Source of the DNA: a virus
Reading direction: 5' to 3' (one strand)
Virus record (IMG/VR): IMGVR_UViG_3300047287_000318
Location: 1-46,591 of that record
DNA: 46,591 bases
How positions within the stretch are numbered: position 1 is the stretch's first letter; each line of letters opens with the position of its first letter. The notes under the pieces are model-generated. The model had not been told where the DNA came from. It worked only from the letters and a program-made list of their open reading frames with translations, and made no database searches. This document shows positions 3,337 through 43,742 of the stretch, piece by piece. The translations under genes were made by a program, and so were the position numbers.

Positions 3337-4329
3337 ATGCTTCTCGCAGGTGTTCCGCTGATCCCCGAACTGTTCCTCGGCTATCAGCAAGAAGAAGTGC
3401 AGGACCGCAACGTTCTCGTCACTTCTGGTCTGATGACCACCAACGGTGCCATCCAGGCCGAATTCAACAAAGGCGGCAAAACCATTGACCTGCCTTTCTT
3501 CGGTGATCTCTCTGGCGACTCTGAGATCCTGAACGACACCACCGGTCTGACCCCTCAGACCATTGGTGGCGGCGTGCAGATCGGTGTTCGCAACCTCCGT
3601 GGTAAGAGCTGGAAGTCCAGCGATCTTGCTGCTGAGCTTGCCGGTTCCGATCCGATGCAGGCCATCGCTCGCAGCACCGGTCGCTACTGGGTGCGCGACA
3701 TGCAAAAAGTCCTGATCCAAGTGATCAAGGGTCTGTTTGCTACTGGCGGCCCCCTGGTTTCCTCTCACGCCTCTGGCGGTACGAGCACTGCTCTGACCCC
3801 TGATGCGCTGATCGACGCCATTGCCAAGCTGGGTGATGCAGGCGAAGAGCTGACCGGTGTGTTTATGCACTCGGCCACCTACTACGCCCTGATGAAGCAG
3901 GATCTGATTGTTCCTGCCTCCACCACTGTGCAGATTGACACCCGCCTGTCTGAGCAGCGTCTGGAGAAAGGCACCTACCTGGGTCGCCCGGTGTTCGTGG
4001 ATGACACCCTGCCTGTTGATGCTGGTGCTGGCACCGGTAGCGGCTCCGGCAAGAACGTGTACTCCACCTACTTCTTCGGTCCTGGCGCCTTCGCTTATGC
4101 GACTGCCCCTGCCAAGACTCCTCTGGAGACCGATCGCGATTCCCTGAAGGGCATCGACTTCCTGATCAACCGGACTCACTATTTGGTGCATCCGAATGGT
4201 CTGAGCTGGGTTGGTACTCCCTCTGGTAACTCGCCCAGCAATGCTGAGCTAGCTACCGGTACCAACTGGAGCAAAGTGTTTACGGATAATCGCAACATCC
4301 GTATCACTCAACTGAAAGCCTACGTCTGA
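3337..4329 (+). CDS. Major capsid protein
   Basis: 330 residues. Position directly after portal and scaffold, size, and the pattern of the N-terminal third (LVTSGLMTTNGAIQAEFNKG, TIDLPFFGDLSG) and the segment RNLRGKSWKSSDLAAELAGSD identify it as an HK97-fold coat protein. The middle residues VRDMQKVLIQVIKGLF form the likely spine helix. Codons are almost uniformly C- or G-ending, and I find no ATA or TTA codon in it, in contrast with the AT-rich tail genes. That fits very high expression in a GC-richer host. A strong terminator follows 18 bases after the stop. A structured leader precedes it. Identity as coat protein is confident; the exact family is not. Confidence 0.85.
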   Translation: MLLAGVPLIPELFLGYQQEEVQDRNVLVTSGLMTTNGAIQAEFNKGGKTIDLPFFGDLSGDSEILNDTTGLTPQTIGGGVQIGVRNLRGKSWKSSDLAAELAGSDPMQAIARSTGRYWVRDMQKVLIQVIKGLFATGGPLVSSHASGGTSTALTPDALIDAIAKLGDAGEELTGVFMHSATYYALMKQDLIVPASTTVQIDTRLSEQRLEKGTYLGRPVFVDDTLPVDAGAGTGSGSGKNVYSTYFFGPGAFAYATAPAKTPLETDRDSLKGIDFLINRTHYLVHPNGLSWVGTPSGNSPSNAELATGTNWSKVFTDNRNIRITQLKAYV

Positions 4330-4347
4330 TAGACGTAGAATAAAAAC

Positions 4348-4371
4348 GGCCCCTTCGGGGGCCTTCTTTTT
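4348..4371 (+). terminator. Rho-independent terminator after the capsid gene
   Basis: A perfect 6-bp stem GGCCCC/GGGGCC closes on a UUCG tetraloop and is followed by TTCTTTTT. It probably limits read-through from the very highly expressed capsid message. Confidence 0.9.
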
Positions 4372-4388
4372 ACCTGGAGGTACTTGAC

Positions 4389-4544
4389 ATGGGAATGGCA
4401 GGATTACGTCTTGCAGAACAGGAGCGTCAAGAGCGTGAAGCTCAAGCTGCCGCTGCTGAATGCCCTATGCCGGAGCCCGCTGCTGAGGAAGCTCCCAAAG
4501 CAGCTACGGTGACTGCAAAGGCTCGGACTACTTCTAAAGGCTGA
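4389..4544 (+). CDS. Small Ala/Glu-rich protein of unknown function
   Basis: 51 residues preceded by a strong Shine-Dalgarno (GGAGG at 4376-4380, 8 bases before the ATG), which decides that this short frame is real. The N-terminal half is a charged helix (LRLAEQERQEREAQAAAAE). The C-terminal half is Pro/Ala/Lys/Thr-rich and probably disordered. It sits between capsid and first connector genes, where tailed phages often carry small head-accessory or decoration genes; no family was recognised. Confidence 0.6.
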   Translation: MGMAGLRLAEQERQEREAQAAAAECPMPEPAAEEAPKAATVTAKARTTSKG

Positions 4545-33171: not shown

Positions 33172-33567
33172 ATGGCCAGCAATCCTAGTTTCATTTCCAC
33201 GCCTCGCATTGGCCGTTGCTCTTTGAGTACTGCGAACACCGCAACCGATGGAACTGGCACTATTGCTGATTTAATTCTCGGCGTAGCAGCTGGCACGCGA
33301 GTTCTTTCTGTTGTTGTGCAAGGAACCGCAACTACAGTTGCCTCATTGGTAAACCTATTTCTGTACGATGGCACAAACTGGGATCTATTTGATCAGGTCA
33401 CAATTAGCGCCACCACTGGTAGCAATACCGTGAAGGGCTATCGCTTGGTGACTGCCTACACGGATCTTGTATTACCGAGCGCTTCTGCAAAGCTTGGGGC
33501 CACAATCACGGTGGCACCTACAACTGGCACTGTGCGCGTAATGGCTTTCGGCGGCGATCTCACATGA
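33172..33567 (+). CDS. Small tail-fibre/virion beta protein
   Basis: 131 residues: STPRIGRCSLSTANTATDGTGTIADLI, then GTRVLSVVVQGTATTVASLVNLFLYDG, a compact jelly-roll-like beta protein of a kind I have seen among cyanophage structural proteins. It is ATGA-coupled (33564-33567) to the first polyglycine adhesin, suggesting the two are made in equal amounts and may form one fibre tip. Confidence 0.6.
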   Translation: MASNPSFISTPRIGRCSLSTANTATDGTGTIADLILGVAAGTRVLSVVVQGTATTVASLVNLFLYDGTNWDLFDQVTISATTGSNTVKGYRLVTAYTDLVLPSASAKLGATITVAPTTGTVRVMAFGGDLT

Positions 33568-34412
33568 ATTTTCTGTTTGGTGGTTGGCCAAACAATTCGA
33601 TGCCGTTTGCGAACTTTCAAGAGTTCACGGTCAGCGGCGTCTGGAAGAAACCACAGGGTTGCACTGGCTATTACATCGAATGTATTGGTGGAGGTGGTGG
33701 TGGCGGAAGCGGGCGTCGTACAACTAGCACTTCGGTAAAAGGAGGTGGTGCAGGAGCAAGCGGTGGAATGTTAGTTTATGCAATTGGTAGTATTGAAGAA
33801 CTTGGCGCAGAAGAATATGTCACCGTTGGATCTGGTGGATCTGGTGGTGCTGCGCAAGCAGTAGATGATACCAATGGAAATACTGGATCTGATGGTGGTA
33901 ATAGCACGTTTGGCGCGCTTCTTTATGCGCCTGGCGGTGTTAGTGGAATCGGCGGGATTTCAGGAGCACCAACTGCTACGCCAATTAAATACAGAGGCAG
34001 CAGTCTTTCGTTTGCTTCCGGCTATTGCGGCATCGGCGGCAACGGCTCTTCTACTGGAGCGGCAGGAGCGCTTGGGCCTGGTGGTGGTGGCGGTGGTGGA
34101 GGAACAACAGCTACTCCAGTTGCTAGCCCTGGTGGTGAGGGTGGCGTTGGATTTGGAATGTTTAAGTTTGGCACTGCAAGTAGTACCGGTGGTGGTGGTA
34201 CAGCTGGTTCGATCAGCACAGCCGGAAGCATTGGATCGTATGGCGATGGTGGCGGTGGTGGCGGTGCTAGCACGACTGGAGCCGGTGGAAATGGTGGAAA
34301 CGGGGCATTTCCTGGCGGAGGCGGTGGCGGTGGTGGCGCCAGCAGCAACACCTTTCTCAGTGGCGCAGGGGGCAATGGCGCTCCTGGCGTAGTACGCATT
34401 TGGTGCTGGTAA
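33564..34412 (+). CDS. Polyglycine adhesin 1
   Basis: 282 residues, about 40% glycine. FQEFTVSGVWKKPQGCTGYYI leads into a Gly-rich run at residues 43-52 (GGGGGGGSG) and several more Gly stretches (residues 170-180, 215-240, 250-270), ending GVVRIWCW. Such proteins are known in phages as adhesins whose Gly motifs form a polyglycine-II helix sandwich (compare gp38 of T-even-like phages such as S16). It is the first of three consecutive paralogues; its stop and the next ATG share one base (TAATG at 34410-34414). Confidence 0.75.
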   Translation: MNFLFGGWPNNSMPFANFQEFTVSGVWKKPQGCTGYYIECIGGGGGGGSGRRTTSTSVKGGGAGASGGMLVYAIGSIEELGAEEYVTVGSGGSGGAAQAVDDTNGNTGSDGGNSTFGALLYAPGGVSGIGGISGAPTATPIKYRGSSLSFASGYCGIGGNGSSTGAAGALGPGGGGGGGGTTATPVASPGGEGGVGFGMFKFGTASSTGGGGTAGSISTAGSIGSYGDGGGGGGASTTGAGGNGGNGAFPGGGGGGGGASSNTFLSGAGGNGAPGVVRIWCW

Positions 34413-35206
34413 TGAACAACAATCCGATAGGCTGGTCTGGAACGCAAAATCCGGTATTTACAAGTTATAGAGAATTCACGCAAAGTGGTTTATGGACGAA
34501 TCCACGGCAAGGTACGTTTTTCTATATAGAAGCTATTGGCGGTGGAGGAGGTGGTGGTAGCGGGGATCGCGGGGCGGCTGGCACATTACGATCTGCTGGC
34601 GCAAGCGCTCATGGCGCTGCTTGCGTTCTCCGCTTTGGTCTTTTGTCTGCGCTTAATCCAATCGAAATCGTAACGATAGGAAGTGGGGCGACTGGAGCCA
34701 CGGGAATAACAACTGATGACACGGTTGGTGGTGCTGCAACAACAGGAGGAGCAACAAGTTTTGGTAGTATCGTTTATGCACTTGGAGGTGGCCCAATTCC
34801 GCCAGTCAGAGGAAATACAACATTTATTCGCGGATATGCTGGTATTGCCGGCGCAAATATTGGAGGAATTTGCCTTTATGGTCCAGGCGGAAGTGGCACA
34901 GGCGGATCTATTACTGCCGCCAATATTGCGAACTCTGGGTCGTCTGGTGGCCAGGGTTTTGCGGCTAGAAAGAGTGTAGGTAGGTCTTCATTTGGCTTTG
35001 GGGGCAATACCAACGGAGGCAATGGCCTTACGGTAGGCGATAGTGGCGGCGGCGGCCTTGCAAGCAATACGGCAACAGGTGGAAATGGCGGAAATGGTGC
35101 ATTTCCTGGTGGAAGTGGCGGAGGTGGTGGCGCCACACTGAACGGCTTTACGTCTGGGGCTGGTGGCAACGGAGCCAATGGTTTTCTGAGGATTTGGACA
35201 TGGTGA
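34412..35206 (+). CDS. Polyglycine adhesin 2
   Basis: 264 residues from the ATG at 34412 (a TTG at 34400 would add four residues but lies inside the previous gene). It shares with its neighbours the entry motif YREFTQSGLWTNPRQGTFFYI, the EAIGGGGGGGSG run and the terminal FLRIWTW. The surface-loop segments between Gly runs differ strongly from paralogue 1, as expected for receptor-binding variation. The stop overlaps the next gene. Confidence 0.75.
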   Translation: MNNNPIGWSGTQNPVFTSYREFTQSGLWTNPRQGTFFYIEAIGGGGGGGSGDRGAAGTLRSAGASAHGAACVLRFGLLSALNPIEIVTIGSGATGATGITTDDTVGGAATTGGATSFGSIVYALGGGPIPPVRGNTTFIRGYAGIAGANIGGICLYGPGGSGTGGSITAANIANSGSSGGQGFAARKSVGRSSFGFGGNTNGGNGLTVGDSGGGGLASNTATGGNGGNGAFPGGSGGGGGATLNGFTSGAGGNGANGFLRIWTW

Positions 35207-36072
35207 ACAACGCAGCTGGCTGGCCTTCTGCCATCCCTCTTTCAACTGGAATTTCATATACTGAATTTACGAAAAGTGGCATATGGGAAAAGCCGCGAAA
35301 TGCGACTTTTTATTACATTGAATGCCTTAGTGGCGGCGGCGGTGGTGGTAGCGGAAAACGTGACGCCACGCTGATCAATCGTGCGGGCGGGGGTGGTGGA
35401 GGCGGAGGCAACTTGGTATTTCGATTTGGACCTGCCTCTGAACTTAACGCAAGAGAAACAGTCACAGTTGGAGCTGGAGGTAGCGGAGCAGCATCTCAAA
35501 CAGTTGATAGCACAAATGGTATTGCTGGTGGCAATGGTGGTTTTTCTCAATTTGGCACGACTCTTTATTCAACTGGCGGAGGTAGTGGTGGCGGCGGCTC
35601 AACAACAATTGGCGATTCGTCGTTATCAGATGGCTCAAGAGGTGATTCAAATTTCGCAAATGGCTATAACTCACTCGGAGGTAACGGGTTGACAAGTGGC
35701 GGCAACTCCGGGCGTCCGTCTGCTTACGGGGCTGGTGGCGGTGGGTCTGGTGGTGGTATTAGTAATACCGATGCTATTGGTAGCACCGGTGCTGGTGGAG
35801 AAGGTTTTTCTGTAAGAAAGTCAGCAGTTTCACTGCAATTCGGTGGAGGTGGTGCTTTAGCTTCCACTGATGGCGCCAGTGGTGGTTCTGGCCTGACTTT
35901 TGGAGATGGCGGCGGTGGTGGTCGCGCTATTGCTGCTGGACCTGGAGGCTCGGGCGGAAATGGTGCATACCCTGGCGGCGGCGGTGGTGGTGGTTCTGCT
36001 TCATTTAACGGATACAATTCTGGTGCTGGCGGAGCTGGCGCTAGCGGTTACGTTCGTATTTGGACTTGGTAA
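35203..36072 (+). CDS. Polyglycine adhesin 3
   Basis: 289 residues from GTG at 35203 (GTGA overlap with the previous stop; ATG at 35200 is the alternative). GTG was chosen because it gives MNNAAGW, parallel to MNNNPIGW in paralogue 2. Same entry motif (YTEFTKSGIWEKPRNATFYYI), Gly runs and YVRIWTW end. Its stop shares a base with the next ATG. Confidence 0.75.
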   Translation: MNNAAGWPSAIPLSTGISYTEFTKSGIWEKPRNATFYYIECLSGGGGGGSGKRDATLINRAGGGGGGGGNLVFRFGPASELNARETVTVGAGGSGAASQTVDSTNGIAGGNGGFSQFGTTLYSTGGGSGGGGSTTIGDSSLSDGSRGDSNFANGYNSLGGNGLTSGGNSGRPSAYGAGGGGSGGGISNTDAIGSTGAGGEGFSVRKSAVSLQFGGGGALASTDGASGGSGLTFGDGGGGGRAIAAGPGGSGGNGAYPGGGGGGGSASFNGYNSGAGGAGASGYVRIWTW

Positions 36073-37913: not shown

Positions 37914-38801
37914 TCAGAGATTGAGTTTGTTTTTAACCGAAAGAAGCAGTGCGCACTTTTGTATGCCCCTTCTTTCCATGATTTGAAGTTTTCCCTTTGA
38001 CAGTCCAGTCGCCTGCGACAAATCCGACCAGGGAGTTGGTCTGTCTCTGTGCCGCTCAAGAATGATGTATTTTGTTTGTTCATCAACAAATTCATCAAGT
38101 GCGCGATAAAGAGTTTCAATGTTGATTCTTTCCTCTGCATCATCAATTGTATTTGAATTGTGCGGATCAGGAACCACATCAATTATTGCGCTTGAATCAT
38201 CTTGATCTGTACATTTTTTATCAAGACTAAATGCGTTTCTTGGCGCATCAAGTAATTTTCGTATATCCTCTACGTCCATGCCGACTTCATCTGATATTTC
38301 CGTGAGCGTTGGTTCGCGCTTTAATTCTTGAGAAAGCCTTTCCCCTGTTCTTCTAATCTGATGTAGAGCATCATACGTTCCAATTGGTAGTCGAATTGTT
38401 GAATCTGTAGCTTGCATCGCCCTCTGAATTGCCTGCCTAATCCACCAGTAAGCATATGTACTCATTGCATAGCCACGAGTTGGATCAAATTTTTCTACAG
38501 CGCGAGCAAGACCAATATTTCCTTCTTGTATAAGATCCATAAAATCAAGTGTCTTAGCAAGTCTTGTGTATTTACGAGCAATATTTACAACAAGACGAAG
38601 GTTGCAATTAATAAATTTAGCTCTTGCTCTTATTCCAATTTTCTCTATTCGCAAATCTTCTTCTGAGTAATTCTCTTTTCCTTTGTCTTGAATTGCTATC
38701 CATGCTTGCACTTGTGTGCCCAGCATTACTTCTTGCGCTTTTGTCAGCAGCGGATAGCGACCTATTTCATTGAGGTAAGCCTGAATCGTGTCGCGGGCCA
38801 T
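37914..38801 (-). CDS. Phage-encoded RNA polymerase sigma factor (cyanobacterial group-2-like)
   Basis: 295 residues from ATG at 38801, giving MARDTIQAYLNEIGRYPLLT, the standard cyanobacterial sigma start; longer frames would add unlike residues. Region 1.2 is at 1-35 and region 2 at 58-130 (NLRLVVNIARKY, DLIQEGNIGLARAVEKFDPTRG, STYAYWWIRQAIQRAM), all well conserved. Region 3 is at 135-190. Region 4 (240-290) is divergent: GLSKGKLQIMERRGIQ replaces the usual ..TRERVRQIE..AL.KLR. It should direct host polymerase, probably to late phage promoters, with normal -10 but altered -35 contacts (inference). Last gene of the leftward cluster. Confidence 0.88.
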   Translation of the reverse strand: MARDTIQAYLNEIGRYPLLTKAQEVMLGTQVQAWIAIQDKGKENYSEEDLRIEKIGIRARAKFINCNLRLVVNIARKYTRLAKTLDFMDLIQEGNIGLARAVEKFDPTRGYAMSTYAYWWIRQAIQRAMQATDSTIRLPIGTYDALHQIRRTGERLSQELKREPTLTEISDEVGMDVEDIRKLLDAPRNAFSLDKKCTDQDDSSAIIDVVPDPHNSNTIDDAEERINIETLYRALDEFVDEQTKYIILERHRDRPTPWSDLSQATGLSKGKLQIMERRGIQKCALLLSVKNKLNL

Positions 38802-38961
38802 TGTCGTGAGTGGAGCCAGAAGCAACTTGCATGTAGTGGAGCTTCCAGAGGGCCTGCCACTTCTGTGCATGATCCCACACCATGCCCAATCCGTAAACGC
38901 GCCATTTCCATTGATTTTCTTCGCATGGCGCTTGAAGCCATGGCTCGTTACTCTCAGACAT
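38767..38961 (-). CDS. Possible small Trp-rich protein upstream of sigma
   Basis: 64 residues from ATG: MSESNEPWLQAPCEENQWKW then GMVWDHAQKWQALWKLHYMQ. It overlaps the sigma start by 35 bases in another frame and would lie in the same transcript. Composition (six Trp) is unusual but not random-looking. The alternative is an untranslated sigma leader. Confidence 0.4.
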   Translation of the reverse strand: MSESNEPWLQAPCEENQWKWRVYGLGMVWDHAQKWQALWKLHYMQVASGSTHDNGPRHDSGLPQ

Positions 38962-38976
38962 AACTACCGCACTTCG

Positions 38977-39243
38977 ATGTCCCATTTAACGTATCGCCCA
39001 GAGGATCAGTTTCAGGAGCGATTGAATGCAGAGCGCCTTAAGGAATTATTCAGTAGTAAAGACCATCAGGGATTGCTCGATTTTGCACTGCTATTGAACC
39101 ATCAGGCATCGTTCAATAACAGTCGTGCGTACTGGGCAATTTGCGAAGCAGCAAAAAATATGAGTGAAGAATTTAACGTAGAAAAGTATATGCCAATTGC
39201 GTCTGAGATAATAGAAGAGAAAAATACCCGAGGCGGGATTTGA
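38977..39243 (+). CDS. Small plus-strand protein inside the leftward cluster
   Basis: 88 residues from ATG at 38977: MSHLTYRPEDQFQERLNAER, then FALLLNHQASFNNSRAYWAICEA and an acidic helix. Upstream in-frame starts give low-quality sequence overlapping sigma and were rejected. Its last 6 residues are coded within the antisense of the tRNA-Leu gene, so it is either a real gene trimmed by the tRNA or a fortuitous frame. Looks protein-like; no family recognised. Confidence 0.45.
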   Translation: MSHLTYRPEDQFQERLNAERLKELFSSKDHQGLLDFALLLNHQASFNNSRAYWAICEAAKNMSEEFNVEKYMPIASEIIEEKNTRGGI

Positions 39244-39298
39244 ACCCGCGCTTGAGCGATTTTAAGTCGCTTGCCTCATTCCGCTGGGCTACTCGGGC
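39225..39298 (-). tRNA. tRNA-Leu(UAA), short variable loop
   Basis: The minus-strand sequence folds with acceptor GCCCGAG/CTCGGGT and discriminator A. The D stem is GCC/GGC with 3 bp, and the anticodon stem AGCGA/TCGCT encloses the loop CTTAAAA (anticodon UAA, reads UUA). The T arm is GCGGG-TTCAAAT-CCCGC. The variable loop is only five bases (CAAGC), whereas leucine tRNAs normally have a long variable arm; the 3-bp D stem is leucine-like. CCA is not encoded. Confidence 0.85.
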
Positions 39299-39304
39299 TT
39301 GTGG

Positions 39305-39376
39305 TAGGTCCGCCGAGAATTGAACTCGGTTCTGCCACTTATAAGGTGACGGCCTTAACCAATAGGCGACGGACCC
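39305..39376 (-). tRNA. tRNA-Ile(UAU)
   Basis: Acceptor GGGTCCG/CGGACCT with discriminator A, D stem GCCT/AGGC with GG in the loop. Anticodon stem GTCAC/GTGGC encloses the loop CTTATAA (anticodon UAU, reads AUA). The T arm is CCGAG-TTCAATT-CTCGG. No encoded CCA. It lies 4 bases after the dcd stop and 6 bases before the other tRNA, so it is probably cut from the same transcript. Bacteria usually read AUA with a modified CAU tRNA, so UAU is notable. Confidence 0.88.
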
Positions 39377-42038: not shown

Positions 42039-42159
42039 TTTCTGAGTGAGAACTGTTGTGATGCACAACATAAGAGATGTGCGAGTAAAAGATAGCAGCA
42101 AAAGAAGCCGATGCAATTGCAAAGCAAATAATGTTTGCAATTTTGTCACGAAGGTTCAT
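41962..42159 (-). CDS. Small single-span membrane protein
   Basis: 65 residues, ATGA-coupled to the MazG-like gene: MNLRDKIANIICFAIASASF then AAIFYSHISYVVHH, one membrane span near residues 8-27. The C-terminal 26 residues overlap the next gene in a different frame and are Ser/His/Lys-rich, so they may be unconstrained. Confidence 0.5.
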   Translation of the reverse strand: MNLRDKIANIICFAIASASFAAIFYSHISYVVHHNSSHSENENQAFRVSHPKSKHLPSDSCDLDC

Positions 42160-42539
42160 TTGACTAAATCAATGAGGGTCGGCGGCTTGTAGTTCGGCCC
42201 TTTCAGCACCTTACCGTCCTCCCTTCTCATAACTTTTCCATCCTCGCCAACCTTGCTCATATTGCTAATGAAGACTCGATGCAATGCCTCATCGAGATCC
42301 CAGCCAAGATATTCAGCCATTTGATAGCAGACGAAGACAAGATCTGCTAGTTCCTTGAGAAAATCTTCTCTTGCTTGCACTGAGCCGCGACTTCCTTCGT
42401 ATGAAAAGCTCGCGACCATTACCTCGTTATATTCTTCCCTGATCAGAAGTCGTTGCAAATCAAATTGATCTCGATTCCATTTATTTGGAAGCTCAAAAAT
42501 TTCGCGGAATTTACGTGCCTGTTCTTGTGGAGTTTGCAT
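42156..42539 (-). CDS. MazG-like nucleotide pyrophosphohydrolase
   Basis: 127 residues from ATG at 42539 (MQTPQEQARKFREIFELPNK). An earlier frame start at 42581 would place the terminator at 42552 inside the gene, so it is rejected. Metal-binding helices REEYNEV (34-40) and KELADLVF (62-69) give the ExxE...ExxD pattern of all-alpha NTP pyrophosphohydrolases. The end with NMSKVGEDGKVMRREDGKVLKGPNYKPP is typical of the phage/bacterial HisE-MazG-like branch. It probably hydrolyses (d)NTPs; phage MazG proteins are often discussed as altering nucleotide or alarmone pools. Confidence 0.8.
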   Translation of the reverse strand: MQTPQEQARKFREIFELPNKWNRDQFDLQRLLIREEYNEVMVASFSYEGSRGSVQAREDFLKELADLVFVCYQMAEYLGWDLDEALHRVFISNMSKVGEDGKVMRREDGKVLKGPNYKPPTLIDLVK

Positions 42540-42551
42540 GGTTGAAATGGC

Positions 42552-42579
42552 AAAACAAAGGCCCCGCCGAAACGGGGCC
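42552..42579 (-). terminator. Rho-independent terminator after the cyAbrB-like gene
   Basis: On the minus strand, GGCCCCG pairs with CGGGGCC over a 6-base loop, followed by TTTGTTTT. It ends the transcript of the upstream cluster before the MazG-like gene. Confidence 0.88.
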
Positions 42580-42601: not shown

Positions 42602-43138
42602 TCAGAGATCCAGATCGTCACCCTCATCAGCGGCGTCTGCGCTGCCCTCAAAGGCCGTCAGAACGATCTTGCCAGCCTCGGCAGTCACTTGCACCTTGGA
42701 GCCGGGACCGAAGCCAGCAATGCTGCTGTGACGGTTGCCGACGACGCAGTTGCCGGTCTTGCCAACGGTGATCACGGGCTGACGACCACGACGAGTGGTG
42801 TAGGAACGGCGATTAGTCGGAGGCACATAGCCAGTGCTCGCCTCAGTCATTGCCTTGAAGAAGGCAGGCTTGTGATAACGGGTTTCGGTTTCGCCCGTTT
42901 CAGAATCAGTTACAAGGGTGTAGTAACCGGTAGAGAAAAGAACTTCCTCAATGGGATCTTCTTTGTGAGCGCCAACATAGTCAAGCAGTGCTTGACCAGT
43001 CATTTTGTCGCCCTTGACTTTGGTTTTACCAACTTCAAGAGTTTCGATTTCTTCGACTTCAGGAGCGAGAGTTGCAGGTGCCATTTCAGAATCAATTGGA
43101 TCTAGGACGTTTTCTGCGCCCTGTTTTTTGCGAGCCAT
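42602..43138 (-). CDS. cyAbrB-like transcriptional regulator
   Basis: 178 residues from ATG at 43138 (MARKKQGAENVLD). Residues 45-105 (KMTGQALLDYVGAH ... STGYYTL ... RYHKPAFFKAMTEASTG) and 115-160 (TRRGRQPVITVGKTGNCVVGN then GFGPGSKVQVTAEAGKIVLT) follow the cyanobacterial AbrB pattern: an N-terminal 'GkaLl..v....' helix region, then a swapped-hairpin domain with 'sV...GNllIG.aY...l.l.pGd.f.i.lg.k.i.L'. In cyanobacteria cyAbrB proteins control nitrogen/carbon uptake genes. The C-terminus is acidic (DEGDDLDL). It is GC-rich and host-like in codon use, followed by a strong terminator, so probably highly expressed. Confidence 0.75.
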   Translation of the reverse strand: MARKKQGAENVLDPIDSEMAPATLAPEVEEIETLEVGKTKVKGDKMTGQALLDYVGAHKEDPIEEVLFSTGYYTLVTDSETGETETRYHKPAFFKAMTEASTGYVPPTNRRSYTTRRGRQPVITVGKTGNCVVGNRHSSIAGFGPGSKVQVTAEAGKIVLTAFEGSADAADEGDDLDL

Positions 43139-43202
43139 GTCGGCGGGTGTGGTTGACCTGTACAAAGTAGCACAGCAACCAGGCTCTTGCAAGTATCCCC
43201 GG

Positions 43203-43742
43203 TTAGGGGGCAAATACAAAAGCCGCCCCGCTCGCTGCCGCTTCATTCAGACGAGTCACTGTTACGTGAACGCCAGGAACGCCATCAGGCTTGCAAAAAA
43301 GCTTGGTGGAAGACGCGGAGACAATTAAGGCGTCGTCATCGTAACATACTTTTGTAAGAGCGTCACCACAAGCTCGTAACAGTTTGTCGGCGTCTCCCAG
43401 CTTGCTGTGAAACACGGGAGCGTTCGATTTCAGCTCGCCCTTGCTGTTGAAGTGGTATTTCGGGCGAGGCATGTAGAAGACGGCGTGAAGGGTGTATAGG
43501 CCGTCTGTGCGCCACATGTTCGGGCGCAGGATCAGGGCCATCTTGCCGATCTTGCTGCGCCACTCATGCAGCCCTTTCGACTGCTCCACCATTGCTACAG
43601 CGACGCGCTGTTTGCCGTTCGCGTCTGTCCATGTGCGGCCAAAAGCGCTCTTCGACCCTTGAGTTTCAGGTTTACCCGAAACGAAGAAAGAGAAGCTCTG
43701 CTCAGCGCAGTCTTCAAAGTTGCTCAGCAGTTTCAGAGTCAC
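43203..43742 (-). CDS. RusA-like Holliday junction resolvase
   Basis: 179 residues from GTG at 43742. SGKPETQGSKSAF (22-34), VEQSKGLHEWRSKIG (52-66), FYMPRPKYHF (89-98), then GDADKLLRACGDALTKV with Asp117, 119 and 127, and YDDDALIV with Asp135-137 form the RusA acidic active site. It would cut branched DNA during replication or recombination, as in many phages. It overlaps the upstream gene by 29 bases. Confidence 0.82.
   Translation of the reverse strand: MTLKLLSNFEDCAEQSFSFFVSGKPETQGSKSAFGRTWTDANGKQRVAVAMVEQSKGLHEWRSKIGKMALILRPNMWRTDGLYTLHAVFYMPRPKYHFNSKGELKSNAPVFHSKLGDADKLLRACGDALTKVCYDDDALIVSASSTKLFCKPDGVPGVHVTVTRLNEAAASGAAFVFAP

Follow-up and report, generated by a model that had tools for sequence, protein, structure and literature searches.

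The window that we analysed, a complete virus record of 46,591 bases, encodes a 178-amino-acid protein that, judged by profile comparison, forms a divergent, phage-only clade within the cyAbrB family. We propose, with a probability of about 40%, that this protein is insensitive to redox state and, as a homologue of host cyAbrB, competes or pairs with it on AT-rich DNA, so that silencing is relieved or redirected. The gene, its flanking signals and three further genes are as follows.

42602..43138, minus strand: cyAbrB-family gene (178 amino acids plus stop), from the ORF, cyAbrB HMM, hhalign, predicted fold and charges
43164..43192, minus strand: candidate promoter-like element TTGCAA-N17-TACTTT, from conservation in 10 loci; begins about 10 nt past the rusA stop
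42560..42579, minus strand: intrinsic-terminator-like stem-loop with a T-rich tail; GC-rich stem, 22 nt past the stop of the cyAbrB-family gene
43203..43742, minus strand: RusA-like Holliday junction resolvase, upstream neighbour (PHROG 140, E = 1.8e-22)
42156..42536, minus strand: MazG-like nucleotide pyrophosphohydrolase, downstream neighbour (PHROG 671, E = 1.6e-29)
37914..38870, minus strand: sigma-70-type phage factor (Pfam sigma-70 regions 1.2, 2 and 3)

Membership in the cyAbrB family

Searched singly against Pfam, the protein matched the AbrB-like family (PF14250) below the gathering cut-off (E = 0.0078; 16.7 bits against 25). That model has 70 positions and spans just the C-terminal part of cyAbrB, and its cut-off is curated, not biologically defining; full-length profile tests therefore weigh more. 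An HMM built from six cyanobacterial cyAbrBs, with phage sequences excluded, matched the studied ORF over model positions 5–127 (E = 6.6e-10, among 18,212 ORFs). When the phage family was compared with 54 cyanobacterial cyAbrBs using hhalign, the two aligned over 127 columns with 98.6% probability (E = 1.3e-15), and five neighbouring phage gene families that served as controls reached 0.1–1.0%. The reverse search, using the phage-family profile against Cyanobiaceae genomes, retrieved cyAbrB proteins. A plasmid collection yielded only two matches (E > 1), AbrB-annotated proteins of Calothrix and Acaryochloris, which align with the phage protein across most of its length. The HMM and profile–profile tests with their controls rule out chance resemblance, and they bear out an earlier note, made from the sequence alone, that had called the gene a phage-borne cyAbrB-like regulator.

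The best single Pfam match was SymE_toxin (E = 0.00094), which would make the protein a SymE-like toxin, an AbrB fold turned toxin. This match covers 22 residues (141–162) at 19.7 bits against a cut-off of 29, weakens to E = 0.01–0.14 in those relatives that match, and is accompanied by E = 0.16 for NCBIfam SymE; the full-length match goes to cyAbrB. We rejected SymE identity for this partial, below-threshold match and regard a SymE-like toxin as very improbable. A sequence search of solved structures with the single protein gave no match; with the combined alignment it reached 2glw, a hypothetical protein.

We modelled the protein with AlphaFold2 (55 sequences, single chain) at a mean pLDDT of 68. 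Values were highest in the N-terminal domain (82–89, residues 41–100) and about 50–73, moderate confidence, in the C-terminal AbrB-type half. The modelled order is helix-helix-hairpin-helix followed by the AbrB-type half, and a control model of a host cyAbrB showed much the same order of elements. In the PDB, the best structural matches were AbrB and SpoVT (probability 0.99 and 0.92, E = 0.14 and worse, over roughly 42–57 columns), and the same families headed the list for the host control. A viral structure library gave one strong match, the 'AbrB family transcriptional regulator' of uncultured phage_MedDCM-OCT-S39-C11 (E = 4.6e-07). In the model, the C-terminal half thus resembles the AbrB/SpoVT fold. 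The earlier note had staked its family call on a significant profile match to AbrB and on a predicted fold with the swapped-hairpin domain; the full-length match and the single-chain model do not speak against it.

The phage protein is collinear with Synechocystis cyAbrB1 (Sll0359) and cyAbrB2 (Sll0822) over the whole cyAbrB length. Its helices and strands are predicted to follow one another as in host cyAbrB, and it shares the motifs GYY, R...F..A...A, GR, G...VG and PG, although identity is about 25%. The GRKHI loop of host cyAbrB is AEAGKI in the phage protein, which also adds a long acidic N-terminal extension and an acidic tail ending in DDLDL; (D/E)DLDL closes every member checked. Because host cyAbrBs have acidic C-termini as well, we view the tail as an elaboration and not an invention. 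Charge is −4 over the N-terminal 44 residues, +3 net over the core (residues 45–163, pI 9.1) and −7 over the last 15 residues, and the pI of the whole protein is 5.0; the basic core would be compatible with DNA binding.

A further difference concerns Cys34 (cyAbrB2 numbering), whose glutathionylation disrupts DNA binding by cyAbrB2 (PMC13421787). Thr occupies this column in 7/7 distinct members of the phage clade, whereas Cys does so in 145/153 sequences from hosts and in 53/61 of the remaining viral ones. The residue does not define the family, as 8/153 host sequences also lack it. Another Cys, residue 131, is present in the C-terminal half of the phage protein. In a tree of 95 cyAbrB sequences, the phage clade came out as monophyletic (100/100); the branch leading to it is very long, which prevents the naming of a donor. 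The phage_MedDCM-OCT-S39-C11 regulator and its contig relatives are likewise diverged phage relatives of cyAbrB by profile comparison (hhalign 95.8%). That regulator has 118 amino acids, lacks the long acidic ends and lies among tail genes; it is at most a candidate sister of the studied clade.

The gene and its locus

An in-frame ATG at 43246, upstream of 43138, opens an alternative longer frame. We place the true start at MARKK, at 43138, on the grounds that this is the start kept across relatives; the promoter-like element is situated between the two candidate starts. Nine relatives on viral contigs share 66–93% identity with the protein. Pairwise dN/dS against the studied gene is 0.10–0.15, rising to 0.29 for the most distant relative (L014), which indicates purifying selection. 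We found no counterpart of the protein among isolate phages (0 tblastn matches in 50,697 phage records), no close relative in a tblastn scan of bacterial and archaeal genomes and no match in PHROGs; the whole record had no megablast match to isolate phages.

The flanks of the gene are conserved too. All 10 loci have TTGCAA unchanged; 17 nt further on comes the hexamer TA[CTA][TC]TT, and the intervening spacer diverges; the exact TTGCAA-N17-TACTTT occurs once in the 46,591-nt record. A generic promoter consensus scan did not list the element, and we call it a candidate on the basis of its conservation. The terminator that had been noted earlier was confirmed as a GC-rich stem-loop with a T-rich tail (42579–42560), kept in 10/10 loci compared. 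With a conserved promoter-like element on one side and a terminator on the other, the cyAbrB-family gene appears to form a transcription unit by itself. The leader just 5′ of the start codon (43141–43157, minus strand) contains CAACCACA, which is invariant in 10 relatives, and no obvious Shine–Dalgarno sequence.

GC-rich, host-like codons had also been taken to mean that the protein may be abundant. The gene is indeed moderately GC-rich (GC 53.1%, GC3 0.508), but this value falls within the range of 0.32–0.66 spanned by 17 genes of the record, and the capsid gene, rusA and portal all have higher GC3. The codon claim holds only in part; as a sign of abundance, codon usage is weak, and we set it aside.

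The gene lies in the order exonuclease, SSB, dNMP kinase, an unknown gene, RusA, cyAbrB-family gene, MazG-like, ThyX, dCTP deaminase and sigma factor, and L011 and L014 largely keep this order from exonuclease to sigma factor; by gene content it belongs to a DNA-metabolism block. This conserved setting fits a role on the phage side, in which the protein would bind the replicating DNA of the phage itself, or would use the (D/E)DLDL tail to bind a replication or recombination partner. It would thereby organise replication or recombination, or the switch from early to late genes, host cyAbrB not being the target. The acidic tip conserved in all members checked is in keeping with such a role. Host cyAbrBs have acidic C-termini too, however, and the phage protein has kept its cyAbrB-type N-terminal domain; we consider this phage-side role somewhat unlikely.

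The phage sigma factor may act at the promoter-like element. Its best matches among isolates are from Synechococcus siphoviruses (36–44% identity). The virus probably infects cyanobacteria, and its host is likely to be a picocyanobacterium, with which the sigma-factor matches are consistent without being proof. The major capsid protein was uninformative as a host clue, as its matches of about 40% are to phages of many hosts. Elsewhere in the window are two adjoining tRNA genes, Leu(TAA) and Ile(TAT), at 39225–39376 (minus strand), and, at 33564–36072 (plus strand), genes in tandem for three glycine-rich proteins whose ends resemble one another, within a stretch of strong GC skew (about 0.26).

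cyAbrB in other viruses and in cyanobacteria

Phage-borne cyAbrB is not unique to the studied virus: one scan for relatives of the cyAbrB of viral contig L097 returned 77 viral loci. The canonical cyAbrBs of other viral contigs (L097, L098, L099 and L190–L263) are phage-encoded members of the same family, lie near host Cyanobiaceae cyAbrBs and mostly retain Cys34, whereas the studied clade is separate (100/100). They also sit elsewhere in the genome. In L098 (4044–4373) and L099 (7992–8315), as in several contigs including L214 and L238, cyAbrB is found between the terminase large subunit and portal. For ten viral contigs we tested one or two nearby proteins each, and these were mostly terminase, portal, RecT, helicase and head genes. 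A RecT gene lies near cyAbrB in two other viral contigs, a further point for a role on the phage chromosome; the position between terminase and portal counts against it, as the genomic context is not constant. One viral contig (L212) carries two tandem cyAbrB genes (3426–3827 and 4059–4427).

Shortened and rearranged versions were also observed. The isolate P-TIM68 (L264:1501–1659) and contig L268 (1501–1659) encode 52-amino-acid proteins that consist of the cyAbrB N-terminal domain only, without the AbrB half, and stop at the identical place. In Synechococcus phage B23, the N-terminal domain is joined to other sequence.

Among cyanobacteria, PF14250 was present in 289/291 genomes sampled, usually in two copies and in up to 13 in Cyanobiaceae. 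Several Cyanobiaceae genomes (L149, L156, L158 and L186) have cyAbrB-like sequence in one frame with an apparent valyl-tRNA synthetase, as does a 1026-amino-acid frame in L151; the synthetase was identified by eye, and fusion or an adjacent in-frame start are both possible. A contig labelled Chloroflexaceae (L050) has a typical cyanobacterial cyAbrB and is possibly misbinned.

Possible interference with host silencing

Host cyAbrB2 binds AT-rich DNA broadly and represses it, functionally resembling H-NS and Lsr2 (PMC11368403, PMC13421787); it interacts with cyAbrB1 (PMC11368403) and was proposed to be a nucleoid-associated protein in 2024 (PMC11368403). In the mechanism that we propose, the phage protein would be a dimeric, nucleoid-type DNA-binding protein made during infection, with a basic core that may bind DNA loosely and a cyAbrB-type N-terminal domain that would allow pairing or competition with host cyAbrB. 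Where host cyAbrB2 covers and represses AT-rich DNA, the phage protein would lift or redirect the repression of phage DNA and, incidentally, of host DNA. As it has no redox switch at Cys34, its action would not depend on the host's glutathione state.

Competition with host cyAbrB, which the earlier note had also suggested, is our leading reading, taken as counter-silencing and at less than even odds. It is supported by full-length membership in the cyAbrB family, dN/dS of 0.1–0.3, the conserved flanking signals and Thr at the Cys34 position. The occurrence of cyAbrB in viral contigs of several types, together with the N-terminal-only forms of P-TIM68 and L268, fits interference with a host partner, and such forms in other phages would suit dominant-negative use. 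Counter-silencing is weakened by the DNA-metabolism context, which fits a phage-side role equally well, and at about 25% identity to host cyAbrB this clade may have lost the ability to pair with it. The idea further presupposes that cyAbrB silences incoming phage DNA, and silencing would also require a GC contrast between phage and host.

The earlier note had also suggested that the protein could re-tune host metabolism, and an auxiliary regulator acting on the host's genes for nitrogen and carbon uptake in infected cells would agree with the regulation of nitrogen and carbon genes by Synechocystis cyAbrB2 (PMC13421787, PMC11368403). We found nothing specific in favour of this idea. As an AT-rich-binding nucleoid protein, cyAbrB2 has a very broad regulon that is not specific to nitrogen and carbon (PMC11368403, PMC13421787), and the phage version is strongly diverged, has acidic ends, lacks the redox Cys and resides in a DNA-metabolism block, with no nitrogen or carbon genes among the neighbours identified at the locus. 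We regard metabolic retuning as unlikely.

For counter-silencing, a phage protein that acts against H-NS-family silencers is established elsewhere (PMC8501957). The phage and plasmid homologues and antagonists of H-NS belong to an unrelated protein family, so that the comparison with phage cyAbrB is one of working alike and not of membership; the shared logic would be that a mobile element disturbs the host's silencer of AT-rich DNA. On a broader and more tentative view, to which we give about one chance in three, cyanophages of several lineages may carry full, divergent or N-terminal-only cyAbrBs as a counter-silencing system. This would be the equivalent in cyanobacteria of the way phages and plasmids interfere with H-NS, and the studied clade would be its redox-blind, strongly remodelled version.

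An annotated phage AbrB protein already exists, and a few jumbo phages have been reported with AbrB DNA-binding domains (PMC7824862). Searches of an open-access full-text library gave few papers, and among these we found no description of phage-borne cyAbrB. Yet the gene is common on viral contigs. Given how widespread the viral copies are, such viruses may interfere with host DNA silencing and control. If they do counter or redirect host cyAbrB, cyanobacteria would be using cyAbrB to keep foreign DNA silent, with phages responding in turn.
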